Source: Yinghuangia soli
GTDB taxonomy: Bacteria; Actinomycetota; Actinomycetes; Streptomycetales; Streptomycetaceae
Direction of reading: 5' to 3'
Length of the DNA stretch: 63,867 bases
Assembly (NCBI RefSeq): GCF_021502675.1
Contig: NZ_JAKFHA010000047.1
Span: 1-63,867, forward strand
Below the pieces are notes generated by a model. That model worked only from the letters and a program-made list of their open reading frames with translations, had not been told where the DNA came from and ran no database searches. Shown here piece after piece: positions 3,385 through 13,676 of this stretch; position 1 is the first letter of the stretch; each line of letters starts with the position of its first letter. The position numbers and the translations under genes were made by a program.

Positions 3385-4497
3385 TCAGCCCGGGCGGACC
3401 GCGCCGTAGAACGGCATCTGGCTGATCGGGGCGATGTTGACCACGGTGCCCGGGCGCGGCGCGTGGATCATCTGGCCGCCGCCGATGTACAGGCCGACGT
3501 GGCTGATGTCGCTGTAGAAGAACACCAGGTCGCCGGGCTGGAGTTGGGACTTGTCGACGCGGGTGCCCTTGATCTGGTCCCAGGTGGTGCGGGGCAGCTT
3601 GACGCCGGCCGCGGCCCACGCGGACTGGGTGAGGCCGGAGCAGTCGTACGAGCTCGGCCCGGCCTTGCCCCAGCCGTACGGCTTGCCGAGCTGGGCGCGG
3701 GCGAAGGCAATGGCCTGGGCGGCGCGTTCGGACGCGGGGACGTTCGGCAGCTCGGCGCCGGGCTTGGGTTCCGCGGGCTTGTCGCGCGACGGCCGGTCGC
3801 CGGGGCGCGTGTCGGCACCCTCGCCGGTGTCATGGTCGTCGGACTGCAGGACGGCCTGGCGTTCCGCCTCGGAGAGGGTGTTGAGCAGCGCCTGGGCCTT
3901 GTTGAGCTTCTCCTGGATCGCGGTCTTCTGCGCCGTGAGGTCCTTGCGCAGCAGTTCGAGCGCGGCGAGCTGCGCGGAGGCTTCGGCGCGGTCCTGCTGG
4001 AGCACCCGGGCGGCGGCCGCGATCTGCTGCACCCTGGCTGCCTGCTGACTGTCCAACTGGTCGAGCATCTGCGCCTTTTGCAGGTACTCGGCCGGGTCGC
4101 CGCTCAGCGCGAGGCGCAGCTCCGGCGGCATGCCGCCGGTCCGGTACTGCTCGGCGGCGAAGGCACCTATCTGCTCGCGCAGGCGGTTCATCGAGGCCTG
4201 CTCCTCGACGACGCGGGTCTGCGTCGCGTTGGCCTCCTTCTGCAGGGTGTCGATCTTTTCCTGCACGCCGTTGTAGACGTCGGTGGCCTTGGTGACCTCG
4301 CGGTGGAGCTGGTTGATCTGCGCCTGCACCTCGGCCTTCGAGGGGGTGGGCTCGGCGTCCGCCGCAGAGCCGAACGCGATGAGGCCGGTGAGCGTCGCGG
4401 CCGCGGTGGCCAGCGTCGCAGCGCCGCCGGGTCGGGCGAAGGACCCCGGTTTCGCCGTGGTCCGGCGGTGCCGGGCGGCATGACGGCGAGAGGCCAT
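3385..4497 (-). CDS. Secreted NlpC/P60 peptidoglycan hydrolase
   Basis: A predicted cell-wall endopeptidase of the RipA/NlpC-P60 type, cleaving the D-Glu to diaminopimelate bond of stem peptides. Of 370 residues, the first 45 form an arginine-rich signal peptide ending near A-DAEPTPSK. Residues about 50-200 are a heptad-rich coiled coil (QINQLHREVTKAT; LNKAQALLNTL). The C-terminal 110 residues are the catalytic domain, with Cys in YDCSGLTQSAW (about residue 285), His in SHVGLYIGGG (about 332) and a following HAPRPG. I chose the ATG at 4497 over one 41 codons upstream because it has GGGAG at 10 bp and begins a proper signal peptide (MASRRHAARHRR). It is divergent from the DsbA/VKOR operon across a region with two GTAGGAG palindromes. 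Confidence 0.9.
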   Translation of the reverse strand: MASRRHAARHRRTTAKPGSFARPGGAATLATAAATLTGLIAFGSAADAEPTPSKAEVQAQINQLHREVTKATDVYNGVQEKIDTLQKEANATQTRVVEEQASMNRLREQIGAFAAEQYRTGGMPPELRLALSGDPAEYLQKAQMLDQLDSQQAARVQQIAAAARVLQQDRAEASAQLAALELLRKDLTAQKTAIQEKLNKAQALLNTLSEAERQAVLQSDDHDTGEGADTRPGDRPSRDKPAEPKPGAELPNVPASERAAQAIAFARAQLGKPYGWGKAGPSSYDCSGLTQSAWAAAGVKLPRTTWDQIKGTRVDKSQLQPGDLVFFYSDISHVGLYIGGGQMIHAPRPGTVVNIAPISQMPFYGAVRPG

Positions 4498-4583
4498 GGA
4501 CGCGTCACTCCCTGGGCAGAGGTAACGGCCGCCAGGCCGACGGCCGCGCGTGGCTGCGCCGCCTGACGCGCCGACGCCGCCGA

Positions 4584-4600
4584 TCCTACAGTCCGTAGGA
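4584..4600. promoter_or_regulatory. Palindrome TCCTAC-N5-GTAGGA, candidate BlaI-type operator
   Basis: The inverted repeat TCCTAC (4584-4589), AGTCC, GTAGGA (4595-4600) is followed by GTCTGC, as in the second copy at 4666-4702. Its centre is 95 bp upstream of the NlpC/P60 start. The half-site resembles the TACTACA/TGTAGTA half-sites of BlaI/MecI operators, although the CTAC to GTAG spacer here is 5 nt rather than 4. Assignment to the BlaI-like protein encoded at 9414-9800 is inference. Confidence 0.5.
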
Positions 4601-4665
4601 GTCTGCTGGGCAAGCCGCATCCGGCGCCGGGGAGGCGCTCTTGCCGGACCGCGGACCGGGTTAGA

Positions 4666-4702
4666 CTCCGCAGACTCCTACAAGCCGTAGGAGTCTGCGG
4701 AG
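4666..4702. promoter_or_regulatory. Perfect 16-bp inverted repeat upstream of dsbA-like gene
   Basis: CTCCGCAGACTCCTAC (4666-4681) and its exact complement (4687-4702) flank the 5-nt spacer AAGCC. The inner part is the same CTCCTAC-N5-GTAGGAG element found at 4584-4600 and 8141-8159. The centre is 46 bp upstream of the dsbA-like ATG, a position suited to repression. In RNA it would form a stable 16-bp hairpin in the leader, so an RNA role is an alternative. Confidence 0.55.
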
Positions 4703-4729
4703 GCCGTCTCCACGACCGAGAAGGCAGGC

Positions 4730-5383
4730 ATGTCCAAGAACCTGAAGATCTCCCTCGCGCTGGCCCTCGTCGTACTGGCCGTCGTCGGCACCCTGCTCGC
4801 GGTCAAGGGCACCAAGGACGACAAGCCCGAATCGGCGACCGCGCAGTCCGAGATGCTCATGCGCGCGGACAGCCACAAGCTGTCCTCGGCGCCGGACGGC
4901 AAGGTCACCGTCGTCGAGTTCCTGGACCTCGAATGCGAGGCCTGCGGGGCCGCGTTCCCCGTCGTGGAGCGGCTGCGGAAGGAGTACGAGGGCCGCGTCA
5001 CGTTCGTCATGCGGTACTTCCCCATCCCCAGCCACCGCAACGCCGAACTCGCCGCCAAGGCGGTCGAGGCCGCGGGCGCCCAGGGCAAGCTGGAGCCGAT
5101 GTACACGAAGATGTACGAGACCCAGAAGGAGTGGGGCGACCAGCAGGTCTCGCACGAGGAGACGTTCCGCGCCTTCGCCCGCGAACTCGGCCTGGACATG
5201 CCGAAGTTCGAGCAGGACTGGAAGTCGCCGGCCACCGCCGAACGCGTCGACCGGGACCGCCGGGACGGCCTCGCGCTCGGTGTGCAGGGGACGCCGACGT
5301 TCTTCCTCAACGGCGAGCGCCTCAAGGTCGGCTCGTACGAGCAGTTCAAGGCGGCCCTCGACAATGCGCTGGCGGCCCCGTGA
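4730..5383 (+). CDS. Membrane-anchored DsbA-like thiol-disulfide oxidoreductase
   Basis: A 217-residue extracytoplasmic thioredoxin-fold protein. Residues 1-26 form an uncleaved signal anchor. The active-site CxxC is Cys69-E-A-Cys72 in a FLDLECEACG context, and the cis-proline loop is QGTPTFFLNG near residue 188. It should introduce or shuffle disulfides in exported proteins. The ATG has GAAGG 5 bp upstream. Its TGA overlaps the GTG of the VKOR gene (GTGA), so the two are translationally coupled. In actinobacteria VKOR reoxidises DsbA-like proteins, so they form a donor-acceptor pair. Confidence 0.9.
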   Translation: MSKNLKISLALALVVLAVVGTLLAVKGTKDDKPESATAQSEMLMRADSHKLSSAPDGKVTVVEFLDLECEACGAAFPVVERLRKEYEGRVTFVMRYFPIPSHRNAELAAKAVEAAGAQGKLEPMYTKMYETQKEWGDQQVSHEETFRAFARELGLDMPKFEQDWKSPATAERVDRDRRDGLALGVQGTPTFFLNGERLKVGSYEQFKAALDNALAAP

Positions 5384-5976
5384 GCATCGCCCCCGAGCCG
5401 CTGCGGCGGCTGTCGCCGTGGGTCCTTCTGGCCGGCGGGCTCGTCGGCCTCGCCGCGGCGTTCGTCCTCATGGTGGAGAAGATCCGGATCCTGGAGGACC
5501 CGGACTACGTGCCGTCGTGCAGCATCAACCCGGTGCTGAGCTGCGGCTCGGTGATGACCACCGGCCAGGCCGAGGCGTTCGGGTTCCCCAATCCGCTCAT
5601 CGGCATCGCCGGGTTCGCCGCGACCGCGGCGATCGGCGCACTGATGCTGACCGGGGCGCGGCTGCCGCGCCGGTTCCGGCTGTCGCTGCTGGGCGGCACG
5701 GCGTTCGGCATCGGTTTCGTGCACTGGCTGATGTTCCAGAGCCTGTACCGGATCGACGCGCTGTGCCCGTACTGCATGGCGGTGTGGGCCGTGATGATCC
5801 CGGTCTTCTGGTACACCGCGCTGTACGTCCTGGCGCGCGAGCCGCTGCCCGCCGGTGCCGCCCGTGCCGTACGGGCGGCCACCGCGTACCACGGCGTGGT
5901 CCTGACCGCGTGGTACCTGGCCATCGCGCTGCTCATCCTGGAGCGCTTCTGGTCGTACTGGGTCACCCTCGTCTGA
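5380..5976 (+). CDS. Vitamin K epoxide reductase (VKOR) family protein
   Basis: A 198-residue integral membrane protein with about five helices. It carries the VKOR cysteine set: Cys47 and Cys55 in a luminal-type loop (PSCSINPVLSCGSV) and the quinone-side Cys129-P-Y-Cys132 in LCPYCMAVW. VKOR passes electrons from DsbA-like proteins to menaquinone, regenerating oxidised DsbA. The GTG start at 5380 overlaps the dsbA-like stop. The frame is open far upstream of this point, but only this start fits the family length and the coupling. Confidence 0.92.
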   Translation: MSIAPEPLRRLSPWVLLAGGLVGLAAAFVLMVEKIRILEDPDYVPSCSINPVLSCGSVMTTGQAEAFGFPNPLIGIAGFAATAAIGALMLTGARLPRRFRLSLLGGTAFGIGFVHWLMFQSLYRIDALCPYCMAVWAVMIPVFWYTALYVLAREPLPAGAARAVRAATAYHGVVLTAWYLAIALLILERFWSYWVTLV

Positions 5977-6120
5977 CCGCCGACCGGGCTCGGGCTCGAC
6001 GTCGGGCGCGACCACCCGCCCGCGGCGACGACGCCGACGGATCCGGCGGTGTCGGCGACCAATTCGAGGTAGGCGCCCGTGACGTCGAGGCTGTCCGACG
6101 CACCGGGTGTCCGTGTCCCA

Positions 6121-8016
6121 TCAGGGGGTTCCTCCGTCGTTCGCGGTGCGGTGGTGCGGCGGGGGCGGCGCGGCGGCCTGGCCGCGGGGTGTCGCGGCGG
6201 CCGTGCGGTGCAGCGATATGCCATGGCGGCGCAGGAGTTGCTGCAGGGACGCGACGTTCCGCGGACGGCTGGGCGGTCGGCCCGGCAGCAGGTAGTCCGG
6301 CGCGACGCCCGGCATCGCGAGGATCGATGTGCGGGGCGCGCGTTCGATCCGGCCGCGTATGAGGGCGGCGAGCGGCGCGGGCAGGACCGTCGCTTCGTCG
6401 CCGTCGGCCGCCAGGCTCATGCCGTGCGGCCCGTGCCGGAAGTCGTCGTGCGTGAGCCGGCAGATCTGCGCGGCGGTGAGGCCGCACGCCTGGGCCAGTC
6501 CGGCGATGATCCGCACGTCGACCGGCAGGCCGGGGTCCTCCGCGGTCCGGCCGGTGGCCGCGGCGAGGCGGGCCGGGCGCGGTACGGGGTCCGCGGCCGC
6601 CTGCTGCGGCACGCGGACGGTCTTGCTGCGGCCGGTGTCCGCGGTCCAGCGCAGGAAGGCCGGTACCGCGCGGCGGCGTCCCGGGGTGGTGCCCGCGCTC
6701 CAGGCGGCCATGAACGCGGGGTCGAGGTCGGCGAGGTCGAGGCCTGCGGCGTCGAGCCAGGCGAGCAGGTCGGCCGCGGCGCGGATGGCGGCGCGGTCTC
6801 GGGTGGCGCGTTCGGCGGTGTGGCGTCCGGCGCCGCGGTCGAGGGCGTCGTCGGCGAAGGCGAGCAGGGTGTCCCGGTGGTGGCGCGGCCAGCACCGGCT
6901 GGCTGCCCGCAGCCACTGCGCGCTGCGCGCGAGGTATTCGTCGCGCCGCGGCAACGTGCCCGTGGCGACGAGCATTTCCCGGACGCAGCGGGTGCTGTGG
7001 TCGTTCGGGAACGCGTCGAGCCGCTCGTGGGTGAGCGGGGCGGGGTCGGCCGCCAGGGACGCGAGGAGCGCGGCGCTCGCTCCGCGGCGCAGCCAGGTGA
7101 GGACGGAGTGGGGCTGGACCGCGTTCTCGAGCGCGGCGGCGAGCGGGACGAGGTCCGGGTGGACTCCGGGGGCGGCCGGGTCGCGGGGGTCGGCAGCGGC
7201 CGGGTCGCGAGGGTCGGGGTCAGCCGGGTCGCGAGGGTCGGGGTCAGCCGGGTCGCGGGGGTCGCGTCCGGTGGAGGTGAGGAGTTCGCGGATGCAGCGG
7301 CGGGTGAGGCAGCGGACGCACAGGCCGTCCGCGTAGACGTCCTGCATCGTGTCGCAGCCCTGGCACGTGCCGGCGGGCGGCGCGGCGGGCCGAGCCGGGC
7401 CTTCCCGAACGTTGTGCGGGGCGCGGCACGCATCGCACTCGGTGCGCTCGCGGGGCGCCTCCGCCCGGCCGCACACGCGGCAGCGCCGCGGAGCGTCGGC
7501 ATGGCAGCCGCGGCACACGGGCCCGCCGGTGTGGCGTCCGGCGGCGAGCGGCAAGCGGCGGCCGCAGCGTGCGCAGGGCCGGGCGTACGGCTGGGAAAGG
7601 CACCACTGGCAGCAGCGGCCGTCCTCGGTGGTCCGCGGCAGCGCGACGTCGTCGCGGCCGCAACGGGCACATGCGGGCTGGGTGACCAGGGCGCCGAGGC
7701 CGCGGTGTTCGAGGTGCCGGGCGAGGCGTACGAGTGCGAGCGGGCAGTCGGGGCGCGGGGCGGTGAACGCGTCGGGGTAGTCGGCCAGGTGCGCGGCGAG
7801 GGCCCGGGCGGCGCGCGTGGACCAGAGCCCGGCGTCCCGCAGCAGGGCCTCGGCCCATGCCGGGCCGCGGTCCGGTGTCCCGGCCAGGTGCACGATGCTG
7901 TCGACGAGGAACTTCCTTGCCTCGTCCGCGGTTTCGGTCCTCAGTCGGGCCGCGCTGTCGCCGGAGTCGGCGGTGCGCGTGGGCGGCTCGGAGCCGGTGC
8001 CCGGATCGTGTGCCAC
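6121..8016 (-). CDS. Zinc-finger protein with tyrosine-recombinase-like C-terminal region
   Basis: A 631-residue protein with a GTG start that has AAAGGAC 8 bp upstream. Residues about 110-245 contain at least eight Cys pairs (CARCGRDD, CCQWC, CARCGRR, CRVCGRAE, CQGCDTM, CVRCLTRRC), suggesting serial zinc ribbons. Residues about 250-285 are a low-complexity RDP-ADPDP repeat encoded by a 24-bp DNA repeat. The C-terminal 250 residues resemble the core-binding and catalytic start of phage-type recombinases found in Streptomyces (GLTAAQICRLTHDD; YLLPGRPPSRPR). However, the region normally following PGRPPSRP looks cut short and ends in Pro/Ala/His-rich sequence, and I see no catalytic Arg-His-Tyr set. 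It may be a DNA-binding protein or a decayed recombinase. Confidence 0.65.
   Translation of the reverse strand: MAHDPGTGSEPPTRTADSGDSAARLRTETADEARKFLVDSIVHLAGTPDRGPAWAEALLRDAGLWSTRAARALAAHLADYPDAFTAPRPDCPLALVRLARHLEHRGLGALVTQPACARCGRDDVALPRTTEDGRCCQWCLSQPYARPCARCGRRLPLAAGRHTGGPVCRGCHADAPRRCRVCGRAEAPRERTECDACRAPHNVREGPARPAAPPAGTCQGCDTMQDVYADGLCVRCLTRRCIRELLTSTGRDPRDPADPDPRDPADPDPRDPAAADPRDPAAPGVHPDLVPLAAALENAVQPHSVLTWLRRGASAALLASLAADPAPLTHERLDAFPNDHSTRCVREMLVATGTLPRRDEYLARSAQWLRAASRCWPRHHRDTLLAFADDALDRGAGRHTAERATRDRAAIRAAADLLAWLDAAGLDLADLDPAFMAAWSAGTTPGRRRAVPAFLRWTADTGRSKTVRVPQQAAADPVPRPARLAAATGRTAEDPGLPVDVRIIAGLAQACGLTAAQICRLTHDDFRHGPHGMSLAADGDEATVLPAPLAALIRGRIERAPRTSILAMPGVAPDYLLPGRPPSRPRNVASLQQLLRRHGISLHRTAAATPRGQAAAPPPPHHRTANDGGTP
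7200..7262. repeat. 24-bp tandem repeat inside the zinc-finger gene
   Basis: The unit GGGTCGCGAGGGTCGGGGTCAGC recurs about 2.5 times in frame (24 = 8 codons), encoding the RDPADPDP peptide repeat on the minus strand. A fourth, degenerate copy lies just before it (7176-7200). Such exact short repeats are prone to copy-number change. Confidence 0.75.
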
Positions 8017-8140
8017 GAGGCGAAGTCCTTTGCGCGACGGGCGCCCAGGAGCCGATCCGGCCCGGTCCGCCGGTGTTCGCGCAGGCCGGAGGCAGGCGTG
8101 TACGGGAAGGCGCAGGCCCGCATGCCGTGCTTCACCCTAG

Positions 8141-8159
8141 CTCCTACAGATCGTAGGAG
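8141..8159. promoter_or_regulatory. Palindrome CTCCTAC-N5-GTAGGAG, third copy
   Basis: CTCCTAC (8141-8147), AGATC, GTAGGAG (8153-8159), flanked by a further A/T pair. Its centre is 134 bp upstream of the zinc-finger gene start. With 4584-4600 and 4666-4702, every one of the three transcription units next to the BlaI/M56 pair has one copy of this element. Confidence 0.5.
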
Positions 8160-8418: not shown

Positions 8419-9417
8419 CTAAGGGGCCGGCCGGGCTGCTTCCTGTGCCGACGCCGTGCACGCGTGCGGCGCGGCGCACTCGGCCAGTCCCGCGCCGACG
8501 TGGCTGAGCGTGGCAGCACCCGCGGCCACCGTCAGGGCCAGCAGCGCGGACGCGACCAGGCGCACCGCGGCATTGCGCCTGGCGGTGCCGGTCGGGCAGC
8601 CGTCCAGGAGCAGCCGTACGCGGCGGGTCACGTGCCCCGCGCCCGCCCCGGCCAGCGCCCGCGCCGCGCCCCGGGCACCGCCGGTGCCGTGCTCGGCATC
8701 GTCCAGGGCGGCCTTGCAGACCGCCGCGGCAAGCGCGTTCGGGTCGTGGCAGCGGCGTACCGCCCACCAGTCGGCGTCGCGTTCGAGGTGGAAGCCGAGC
8801 TCGCGGTGCGCGTACCGGGTGCCCGGCAGCCACCGCGCGAGCAGCAGGCAGACCTCGGCCCCGGCGACCACCCAGCGATGCGCGCGGCGGATGTGGCCCT
8901 GCTCGTGGGCGAGCGCGGCGTCCAGCTCGGCGTCGTCGAGCGCGCCGAGTGCCCCGGCGCTGACCACGACGCGCGGCCGGCGGAGGCCGACCGCGGCCAG
9001 CAGGATCCGCGAGTCGGCGACCACGACCGAGCCGCCCGGCCCCTTGATGGGCAGCGGCCGCATCCGGGCGCCCATTTCGCGGTCCGCGGCCCGGAACCGC
9101 CGGGCGAGCACGACCAGCGCCGCGCCGGTGAGGGCGAGCAGCATGGTGGAGGTGGCCGCGAGGTCCGAGCCGAACCCGGTCGGCAGGTCGTGCAGTCCAC
9201 GCGGGATCCGGGGCGTGTGCGGCAGGCAGACCACCGCCAGCAGCACGATCGCCACCGCGGCGACCGCCCGCAGCACCATGCCGGCGGCCCAGACCGCGAC
9301 CGCGGCCATCGGCCGGACCCGGTCGAGCTGGAAGCACCGGGCGGCAGCATGCGGCGCCATCGCGCCCGCGCCCACCAGGGCCGCCCAGAACACCGCCTGA
9401 GCCCCGAACCACGTCAC
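8419..9417 (-). CDS. M56-family (BlaR1/MecR1-like) membrane metalloprotease
   Basis: A 332-residue membrane protein with N-terminal helices (about 8-25, 37-65, 85-106), a cytosolic-type catalytic loop with the zinc motif H171-E-Q-G-H175 (ALAHEQGHIRRAHRW), a downstream ERDADWWAV metal-ligand segment, and a final helix near residue 300. M56 proteases cleave BlaI-type repressors after sensing. This one lacks the roughly 250-residue penicillin-binding sensor domain of BlaR1, so the signal must enter another way. The GTG start overlaps the BlaI-like stop (GTGA), giving a coupled pair. Confidence 0.85.
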   Translation of the reverse strand: MTWFGAQAVFWAALVGAGAMAPHAAARCFQLDRVRPMAAVAVWAAGMVLRAVAAVAIVLLAVVCLPHTPRIPRGLHDLPTGFGSDLAATSTMLLALTGAALVVLARRFRAADREMGARMRPLPIKGPGGSVVVADSRILLAAVGLRRPRVVVSAGALGALDDAELDAALAHEQGHIRRAHRWVVAGAEVCLLLARWLPGTRYAHRELGFHLERDADWWAVRRCHDPNALAAAVCKAALDDAEHGTGGARGAARALAGAGAGHVTRRVRLLLDGCPTGTARRNAAVRLVASALLALTVAAGAATLSHVGAGLAECAAPHACTASAQEAARPAP

Positions 9418-9800
9418 GGCGTACCGCGTTCTTCCCGGGCCTGCTGGGCCAGCGCCCGCAACTCCTCGACCTCGGCGGGGTCCATGCGGTCCACGAGCCG
9501 CGCCAGCGCAAGCCGCCGCGCGGAACTGGACGCGGAGTCCAGCGTCGCGGTCAGCGCACCGCCGACGTAGTCGGCCTCGCTCATCGCCGGGCGGTAGACG
9601 ATGGTGTTGCGCTCCCGCTCCCGGGTCAGCAGGCCCCGCTCCGCGAGCCGGTTCAGCACCGTCTGGATCGTGGTGTACGCGCCGGCGGACCCCTCGGGAA
9701 GGCCGCTGCGGACCTGCTCCACCGTGCCCGCGCCGATCCGCCACAGCACCGTCATGATCTCGGCCTGGAGCTCGCCCTGCACCCGCGGTGCCTCACCCAC
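9414..9800 (-). CDS. BlaI/MecI-family transcriptional repressor
   Basis: A 128-residue winged-helix repressor. The recognition helix region contains TTIQTVLNRLAERGLL followed by the wing and TIVYRPAMSEADYV, the hallmark of BlaI/MecI/CopY regulators. The C-terminal half is a dimerisation helix rich in Arg/Leu. I chose GTG at 9800 because GGAGG lies 5 bp upstream and the length fits the family (120-130). An ATG at 9896 with GGGGGA upstream would add 32 atypical residues. The partner protease follows with overlap. No GTAGGAG palindrome is visible at its own promoter, so autoregulation through that element is not supported. Confidence 0.88.
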   Translation of the reverse strand: MGEAPRVQGELQAEIMTVLWRIGAGTVEQVRSGLPEGSAGAYTTIQTVLNRLAERGLLTRERERNTIVYRPAMSEADYVGGALTATLDSASSSARRLALARLVDRMDPAEVEELRALAQQAREERGTP

Positions 9801-10065: not shown

Positions 10066-11055
10066 ATGTCGACCGCGACACCACCGCCAACCGCCCGGCC
10101 CGGGCTTCCGGCGTACCCCGAACTCCTCGGCAGCAAGCACCCGTTCCGGCAGTGGAAGACGTGCCGGATCCCCGGCACCGACCTGACGCTTTCGGGCTAT
10201 TCGCGGGCCAACGACAAGACGTTCTTCCACATCCCCGAACTGCGCTGCAGCCTCGACGCGGGGCTGTGCGAGGGGCGGCAGGTCGACACGGTGTTCCTCA
10301 CCCATACGCACCACGACCACGCCAAGGACCTGGACTTCCTGGCCGCGAAAGCCGGGGGCACGGACATCTACCTGCCCACCGCGGCGGTGCCGTACGCCGA
10401 GTCCTACCTGCGGGCCAGCGCCGAGCTCAACCACGGCGCCGCGTTCGATCCCGCGCTGGCCGGGCACCGGCTGCACGGGGTCGGCCAGGACGACGAGTTC
10501 ACCTTCGGCCGCCAGGGGCACCACGTTCGGGTGGTCGACTGCGCGCACAAGGTCCCGTGCGTGGGCTACGCCTTCTCCGAGCGCCGCAAGGCCCTGCGCC
10601 CCCAGTTCGAGCAGCTCCGCCGCGAGTTGGCGGACCAGGGCCGCGGCGCCGAGTTCGGCCGCGTCATGGCGGAGCAGCGCAAGCAGGGCGTCGAGGTGGA
10701 CGAGGAGGTCCGGCGCCCGTTGTTCGCCTTCCTGGGCGACACCCGCGTCGACGTGTTCGAACGGAACCCGTGGCTGTTCACGTACCCGGTCGTCATCACC
10801 GAGTGCACGTTCCTCGACGACGCGGAACTGGAGCGGGCCGAACGCATCGGCCACACAGTCTGGAGCCGCCTCGCACCGGTGATCGAGTCCCACCCGGAGA
10901 CGCAGTTCATCCTGACCCACTTCAGCCTGCGCCACTCGGACCGCGAGATCCTGGACTTCTTCGCCGGACTGGTGGATGGAATACCCCCGAACGTGATGCT
11001 TTGGGCACACCCGGAGAGCTGCCTCCCCGAGCAGCACCAACACCGCAGCGCCTGA
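10066..11055 (+). CDS. Metallo-beta-lactamase fold hydrolase, RNase Z-like
   Basis: A 329-residue soluble protein with the MBL signature TH-T-HHDH (LTHTHHDHAKDL, about residues 83-94), a second His in VVDCAHKVP, an Asp in AFLGDTR, and a late THFSLRHSD metal-ligand segment. The layout (short exosite-free, histidine near residue 285) fits the RNase Z/ElaC-like branch, which cuts tRNA 3' trailers, but actinomycetes carry several paralogues and the substrate of this one is unknown. AGGAG lies 9 bp before the ATG. It stands alone, divergent from the BlaI pair. Confidence 0.8.
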   Translation: MSTATPPPTARPGLPAYPELLGSKHPFRQWKTCRIPGTDLTLSGYSRANDKTFFHIPELRCSLDAGLCEGRQVDTVFLTHTHHDHAKDLDFLAAKAGGTDIYLPTAAVPYAESYLRASAELNHGAAFDPALAGHRLHGVGQDDEFTFGRQGHHVRVVDCAHKVPCVGYAFSERRKALRPQFEQLRRELADQGRGAEFGRVMAEQRKQGVEVDEEVRRPLFAFLGDTRVDVFERNPWLFTYPVVITECTFLDDAELERAERIGHTVWSRLAPVIESHPETQFILTHFSLRHSDREILDFFAGLVDGIPPNVMLWAHPESCLPEQHQHRSA

Positions 11056-13034: not shown

Positions 13035-13676
13035 ATGAGCATCGCGCCGAGCACCACCGGCCTCACCCCCGTCGACATCTGGGTCGACCCGCGCTGCCCC
13101 TGGGCCTGGATCACCTCCCGCTGGCTGCTGGAGGCCGAGCAAGTCCGGGCGCTGAACGCCCGGTTCCACATCATGAGCCTGTCCGTCCTGAACGAGGGCC
13201 GCGAGGTCCCGGAGCAATACCGCCAGGGCATGATCGACGGCTGGGCCTGTGTACGCGTGTGCGTCGCGGCCCGGCAGCGGCTCGGGGACGACGCAGTACG
13301 GCCCCTCTATCTCGCCATGGGCCGCCTCATCCACCACGAGAAGGCCGGGCTCGGCGACGCCATGATCCGGGACGCGCTGACCGAGGCGGGCCTGCCCGCG
13401 GATCTGATCGCGGCCGCGGACGACACCGCATGGGACGCCCCGCTGCGCGCCGAGCACCACGCGGGCATGGACCCCGTCGGTTCGGAGGTCGGCACTCCCG
13501 TCATCCACGTACCGGGCCCGGACGGGAGGCGGTTGGCCTTCTTCGGTCCCGTCCTCACGCCCGCGCCGCGCGGCGAGGAGGCCGGGCGGCTCTGGGACGC
13601 CGTGCTGGCGGCCGCAAACGTAGACGGCTTCTTCGAGCTCAAGCGCGGCCGCGACCGCGGCCCGCAGTTCGAGTGA
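13035..13676 (+). CDS. DsbA-like thioredoxin-fold oxidoreductase (Rv2466c-like)
   Basis: A 213-residue soluble protein with the N-terminal beta strand and active site WVDPRCPWAWITSRW (about 16-30), which is the pattern of the mycothiol-dependent nitroreductase/DsbA-like Rv2466c group. It also has a helical insert, the cis-Pro loop GTPVIHVPG and a C-terminal helix. The family usually has CPWC; here the second Cys is Ala (C-P-W-A), so a monothiol mechanism with a low-molecular-weight thiol is inferred. It precedes an MFS transporter by 56 bp in the same direction and is divergent from LysR. Confidence 0.8.
   Translation: MSIAPSTTGLTPVDIWVDPRCPWAWITSRWLLEAEQVRALNARFHIMSLSVLNEGREVPEQYRQGMIDGWACVRVCVAARQRLGDDAVRPLYLAMGRLIHHEKAGLGDAMIRDALTEAGLPADLIAAADDTAWDAPLRAEHHAGMDPVGSEVGTPVIHVPGPDGRRLAFFGPVLTPAPRGEEAGRLWDAVLAAANVDGFFELKRGRDRGPQFE

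Follow-up and report, generated by a model that had tools for sequence, protein, structure and literature searches.

Introduction

The BlaR1-BlaI and MecR1-MecI systems of Staphylococcus and Bacillus pair a BlaI-family repressor with an adjoining membrane protease bearing the HExxH...ExxxD motif, and their operators are dyads with TAC..GTA half-sites, such as TACTACA-NN-TGTAGTA in staphylococci. A pair of this kind is encoded in the 63,867-bp stretch of Yinghuangia soli DNA analysed here (the window, which is the entire contig C42 of a 9.7-Mb genome with 96% completeness), where three similar palindromes precede nlpC, coding for a peptidoglycan hydrolase, the genes dsbA and vkor, coding for a thiol oxidase and a membrane oxidase, and a gene for a CxxC-rich protein. 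We consider it probable that the BlaI encoded nearby uses the palindromes as its operators and would repress these genes until relieved by the protease. In PMC9834060, BlaR1 is described as a membrane protease with HExxH...ExxxD that lies beside BlaI and cleaves it. The window differs from those systems in that a penicillin-binding domain is missing, the dyad spans 17 bp, there is no operator at blaI, and linkage is with dsbA-vkor, nlpC, and the CxxC-rich gene.

Among solved structures, the best match of the window BlaI was 2g9w (E 2.7e-10), which we take to be the Mycobacterium tuberculosis BlaI, Rv1846c; 1p6r was matched as well. The two repressors differ in the helix region, which reads AYTTVMAVLQRL in M. 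tuberculosis and AYTTIQTVLNRL in the window. According to PMC12565901, Rv1846c binds the promoters of an ATP-synthase-linked gene and of Rv2151c, and therefore actinobacterial BlaIs control more than a lactamase; disulfide genes are not named in its accessible text. BlaI genes are common among actinobacteria, and a BlaI relative was found in all 200 genomes of the family Streptomycetaceae that were compared. To our knowledge, the signal and targets of most actinobacterial BlaIs are not known.

The window genes resemble the actinobacterial DsbA-VKOR pathway, an operon for extracytoplasmic disulfide bonds, and differ from it by the BlaI control proposed here. The 17-bp form of the palindromes would tie one BlaI target set to wall hydrolysis and to the making of disulfide bonds outside the cytoplasm; literature searches returned no report of this link or of BlaI control of DsbA or VKOR. 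Comparison with other bacteria suggests that the palindromes are switches for the neighbouring repressor, of a kind best known from penicillin resistance, used here to control extracellular protein folding.

Three palindromes in the window

An initial annotation, made from the letters of the window, had noted three copies of CTCCTAC-N5-GTAGGAG and no others. The places stand, and sites 2 and 3 match this form exactly, but site 1 has one mismatch, and the core common to all three is the 17-bp TCCTAC-N5-GTAGGA. The relaxed pattern TMCTA-Nx-TAGKA, with x from 2 to 12, occurred nowhere in the window beyond the three sites. The exact core was found at four places in the whole genome, three of them in the window, and the reversed pattern at none; 200 windows simulated with a first-order Markov model contained no exact core. 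The three window cores fall inside 3.6 kb, each before a gene and 1.3-4.8 kb from blaI. The fourth lies among tandem repeat copies spaced 25 bp apart on contig C3 and was taken as unrelated. The initial annotation thus withstood the genome scan for scattered copies that it had itself proposed, since the exact core was nowhere else outside the repeat. The TCCTACTGCAGGTAGGA-like copies that recur every 25 bp at G000:C3:117262-117328 (L001, L006, L007) mimic the operator core.

Looser matching was less informative. When 3 mismatches were allowed, the window gave 5 matches against a mean of 1.57, which is barely above chance as 3 of 100 shuffles reached 5, and this matching was dropped in favour of the exact core. 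When a single mismatch was allowed, 8 matches were counted in the genome against 16 for the reversed pattern, and the places found elsewhere in this way (C3:33454, C45:183445, and neighbours of the C3 repeat) were set aside because the reversed control had more. What counts as evidence is therefore just the exact core and the way its copies cluster.

A -10-like TANNNT, read by eye, lies in or a few bases from each dyad. On the minus strand, the right half of operator 1 gives TAGGAT, 19 bases after TTGCCC, which would form a putative promoter. TAGACT stands 7 bases before operator 2, and TAGGGT directly follows operator 3 in the 3' direction on the minus strand. A promoter and terminator scan of positions 4490-4740 returned nothing; the promoter consensus used was that of E. 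coli.

Site 2 forms the centre of a perfect inverted repeat of 37 bp (4666-4702), whose arms measure 16 bp and which is far longer than the operator core, and the RNA of this stretch folds at -42.1 kcal/mol with a z of -7.1. Such a hairpin before dsbA could act as an RNA element or terminator that folds in the transcript and attenuates or protects it. We regard this as highly improbable: at sites 1 and 3 the arms are just 6-7 bp long, there is neither a T run nor a terminator-like site, site 2 sits between divergent genes, and the fixed spacing common to BlaI loci, described next, suits a dimeric protein better than a hairpin.

The 17-bp form as a candidate BlaI-family operator

The initial annotation had likened the half-site to those of BlaI operators, and the same spacing does recur in BlaI loci. 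Among 51 loci fetched by BlaI similarity, TMCTA-Nx-TAGKA was counted 14 times at x = 7, spread over 13 loci, twice at x = 4, 3 times at x = 10, and never at any other x of 2-12; two of these loci (L041, L055) had already come up in motif searches, and several more had shown their palindromes before the pattern was fixed. The 29 dsbA loci compared (the window and 28 others found by DsbA similarity) comprised 10 with BlaI, which contained 16 dyads, and 19 without, which contained 3, so that a dyad was present in 9/10 loci of the first kind (window included) and in 2/19 of the second. At x = 10, these loci held 5 sites with BlaI and 2 without, and other spacings gave none.

The 19-bp form CTCCTAC-N5-GTAGGAG occurs 10 times in the 200 family genomes; five of these places have a BlaI gene less than 5 kb away, two are 14 and 22 kb from one, and three have no BlaI near. 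The number of these places is unremarkable, but their position relative to BlaI is less so. When six genomes were scanned whole for TMCTA-N7-TAGKA, 9 of the 11 places fell within 5 kb of a BlaI gene, and the 17-bp form would accordingly allow BlaI targets to be read from sequence. By comparison of loci, then, TMCTA-N7-TAGKA is a candidate BlaI-family operator, met as dyads with TAC/GTA half-sites before genes. Two other BlaI genes of the Y. soli genome have different upstream palindromes, ATCTACTAAGTAGAT at L019 and TCACTAC-N11-GTAGTGA at L022.

Recurrence with dsbA and NlpC/P60 genes

The initial annotation had proposed that a BlaI-type system controls wall hydrolysis and disulfide-bond formation, and in several actinobacterial lineages dsbA and an NlpC/P60 gene were indeed linked to BlaI. 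In flanks of up to 8 kb around the 28 other dsbA loci, BlaI was found in 9 (Streptomyces LHD-70, Saccharopolyspora, five Amycolatopsis, and two Nocardioides) and NlpC/P60 in 7; because several loci end at contig ends, the absence of BlaI from some of them is not proof. In Saccharopolyspora (L071), two adjacent dyads precede the NlpC/P60 gene and one lies between blaI and dsbA. In Amycolatopsis the dyad is upstream of nlpC-blaI-protease, and in Nocardioides it is upstream of dsbA.

A reverse search by BlaI covered 394 genomes of the class at an E-value limit of 1e-15, with weaker relatives uncounted. In its three best matches outside the family (G376, G414, G342), blaI is divergent from a dsbA of 54-58% identity, with TACTAT-N5-ATAGTA between the two genes. 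In one of these genomes the dyad at dsbA is the sole such site; the other two genomes have one further site each, which lies 3-4 kb from another BlaI. VKOR and NlpC were not found in these three stretches, and none of the next BlaI matches (L116-L120) stands beside dsbA. Taken together, these sequence comparisons support well a wiring in which BlaI/M56 pairs would control DsbA-VKOR and a wall hydrolase.

Probable assignment of the sites to the neighbouring BlaI

The Y. soli genome contains four BlaI genes. The window BlaI has one close relative among the 200 family genomes, in G030 (63% identity; the next best has 41%). This 12.1-Mb genome holds two cores, one 1.6 kb downstream of the window-type blaI and the other on a different contig. 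The core is absent from the three genus siblings of G030, and neither the core nor a close relative of the window BlaI is present in the two siblings that belong to the genus of the window; the same holds for all five siblings together (G001, G018, G004, G020, G037). Since G030 has both and the siblings have neither, the core follows the window BlaI. The neighbouring BlaI, which the initial annotation had named as the natural candidate, is thus the likeliest reader of the three palindromes, whose form is of BlaI type.

Another BlaI, most likely that of contig C52 (L021), might read these BlaI-type operators instead. In the BlaI tree, the C52 protein shares a large clade with the BlaIs of G088, G197, and G131, and in all three genomes the 19-bp form is near these genes: in G088 and G197 it precedes the BlaI domain by about 110 bp, and in G131 it is 2.9 kb from the BlaI gene; members of this clade are also present in G030 (L090, L094). 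However, G018, G004, G020, and G037 encode BlaIs that fall in the C52 group or in the group sister to it, and all of these genomes lack TCCTAC-N5-GTAGGA. No dyad was found upstream of the C52 blaI, and the sites adjoin the window BlaI. We think reading by another BlaI unlikely.

Several further points weigh against control of the three units by the window BlaI, as does the occurrence of the same sequence at promoters of the larger clade in G088 and G197. An operator in front of blaI itself, as autoregulation in the BlaI family would require, was found neither in the window (best candidate 2/10 mismatches, 27 bp before a divergent gene at 10066) nor in G030 (best 4/10 mismatches), and an autoregulated unit that includes blaI is not supported. 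The G030 sites have other neighbours (HATPase_c_2 and DUF1918/Usp at one, DUF3105 at the other), so even the closest BlaI does not have dsbA control in common with the window. In the Y. soli genome, TMCTA-N7-TAGKA occurs at the same four places as the core against 19 for the reversed control, so such a sequence is rare rather than enriched; the 10 places of the 19-bp form are spread over 7 family genomes, and its reversed control gave 8 places in 8 genomes. When the half-sites CTAC/GTAG alone were counted in the 51 BlaI loci, spacers of 5, 6, and 8 gave 16, 13, and 16 sites, with 0-1 elsewhere from 2 to 9, which suggests that the spacing differs in other groups of BlaI.

The comparison of loci has weaknesses of its own. 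The contrast between dsbA loci with and without BlaI is partly circular because the pattern was drawn after part of the same loci had been seen, which applies less to the spacing control, and because many loci come from closely related bacteria, among them five Amycolatopsis and two Nocardioides, the counts are neither blind nor independent. L062 has BlaI, NlpC, and dsbA without a dyad, and in L071 neither a protease nor VKOR was found. The dsbA-linked BlaIs occupy four or more places in the tree, with the window pair on a long branch, although the deep joins of this tree are weak and carry a long-branch warning. A single orthologous group of dsbA-linked BlaIs was rejected on this tree, and the association therefore appears to have arisen, or arisen anew, on several occasions.

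Repressor, protease, and proposed mechanism

The initial gene calls passed the Pfam cut-offs for NlpC/P60, DsbA, VKOR, and Penicillinase_R (PF03965, 90.1 bits against 22.6 for the window BlaI), but the M56 call did not: the protease scored 24.4 against a cut-off of 31, and M48 passed with 27.4 against 20.3. It is nevertheless an HExxH...ExxxD membrane protein beside BlaI, and H171, E172, H175, E212, and D216 are invariant in 21 aligned proteins. Its structural model (mean predicted local distance difference test score 83) gave as best folds a putative Zn-peptidase (3c37), Ste24p, ZMPSTE24, and BlaR1, none at E ≤0.001. Pfam revealed no penicillin-binding sensor domain in its 332 residues.

For the window locus, we infer binding, repression, cleavage, and a signal as follows. 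Each 17-bp dyad, located at the promoter or next to it, would be occupied by a BlaI dimer that keeps nlpC, dsbA-vkor, and the CxxC-rich gene down. Upon an extracytoplasmic signal, the adjoining membrane metalloprotease would cleave BlaI, as BlaR1 does, and free the promoters. This would yield more DsbA and VKOR for oxidative folding, plus the wall hydrolase. The envelope-stress signal proposed in the initial annotation is plausible but not supported here, and a redox or metal signal is equally possible.

A redox signal through the cysteine pair of the protease is attractive but fits the dsbA linkage poorly. The C-terminal cysteines form C-x5-C (C314, C320) in the window and G030, C-x3-C in L113-L115, and CC in the two Nocardioides. 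As a disulfide-homeostasis switch of Gram-positive bacteria, the system could use this pair, in a tail taken to be outside the cell as in BlaR1, as a DsbA substrate: once DsbA-VKOR failed to keep the pair oxidised, the protease would become active and cleave BlaI, and the wall hydrolase would rise together with dsbA-vkor. Oxidative folding would thus be under feedback control, and BlaI/M56 pairs would have given rise to such a loop more than once. We hold such a loop to be rather doubtful, as in the model the tail is part of a single helix (279-328) with no sign of a bond, and the pair tracks dsbA linkage poorly. The dsbA-linked proteases of Amycolatopsis and L062 have one tail cysteine. As a mark of dsbA linkage, the pair does not serve well, with pairs also present away from dsbA in G030, G088, and G197.

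A metal signal is possible because related dyads precede DUF305 genes elsewhere. DUF305 genes are often linked with copper, and disulfide formation would be a plausible target of copper stress in a metal-responsive, CopY-like system. TMCTA-N7-TAGKA lies upstream of DUF305 genes in L073 (0.4 kb) and L116, and the second G030 site has DUF3105 0.65 kb downstream, with an open reading frame between, and DUF305 3.1 kb off, with other genes between. CopY/TcrY regulators belong to the same superfamily, and CopY_TcrY was the best NCBIfam match of the window BlaI, although its 41.5 bits are far under the cut-off of 121.95. CopY carries a C-terminal cysteine metal site; the window BlaI has no cysteine in its 128 residues and therefore lacks this site. 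There is no metal transporter among the three window targets, and a look for BlaI in the L073 stretch gave none. Metal control of the window genes thus appears quite improbable, and relief of BlaI repression by the protease upon an extracytoplasmic signal is the reading we prefer.

BlaI-type dyads were also seen upstream of Ig-domain L,D-transpeptidase and DUF305 genes (L116 at 6519 and 14631; L073 at 13557) and near DUF3105 in G030 (L100 at 4479). Judged by these sequences, a wider set of wall and metal genes under BlaI-type dyads is possible.

Features of the locus

The features are listed in Table 1. The nlpC start at 4497 was our choice, as a signal-peptide-like stretch follows it; the longest frame starts at 4620, and this start, if used, would place operator 1 inside the gene. 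The start of blaI was placed at the domain, and its reading frame stays open further upstream.

Table 1. Palindromes and genes of the window locus
Feature	Position	Strand	Description
Operator 1	4583..4601 (core 4584-4600)		ATCCTAC-AGTCC-GTAGGAG; 85 bp upstream of nlpC start 4497
Operator 2	4675..4693 (core from 4676)		CTCCTAC-AAGCC-GTAGGAG; 36 bp upstream of dsbA
Operator 3	8141..8159 (core from 8142)		CTCCTAC-AGATC-GTAGGAG; 124 bp upstream of CxxC-rich gene
nlpC	3385..4497	-	NlpC/P60 peptidoglycan hydrolase, 370 aa; passes Pfam cut-off; RipC model 146.6 bits (cut-off 425)
dsbA	4730..5383	+	DsbA-like thiol oxidase, hydrophobic N-terminal stretch, 217 aa, CEAC; passes Pfam cut-off
vkor	5380..5976	+	VKOR membrane oxidase, 198 aa; overlaps dsbA end; PF07884, 148.9 bits, passes cut-off
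CxxC-rich gene	6121..8016	-	CxxC-rich protein, 631 aa; compared with Pfam, NCBIfam, PHROGs
Protease gene	8419..9417	-	Membrane metalloprotease, M56/M48 kind, 332 aa; HEQGH (171-175), E212-xxx-D216, C314/C320
blaI	9414..9800	-	BlaI/Penicillinase_R repressor, helix AYTTIQTVLNRL, 128 aa, no Cys; overlaps protease gene

The closest named relatives of DsbA are from Streptomyces (67-71%). A second thiol-redox gene, without an operator, lies 3.2 kb from blaI at 13035-13676 on the plus strand and codes for a mycothiol-dependent nitroreductase (Rv2466c-like, 265 bits).

The CxxC-rich protein had initially been called a zinc-finger protein. It is indeed rich in CxxC motifs, but no known regulator family was matched, with Pfam, NCBIfam, and PHROGs all giving no match. 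Similar proteins occur in 93 actinobacterial plasmid records (61 from Streptomyces), of which 7 cover at least 80% of the window protein. Compared with 10 of the 93, its identity was 31-41%, and several of these proteins are annotated as XRE/helix-turn-helix (HTH) regulators.

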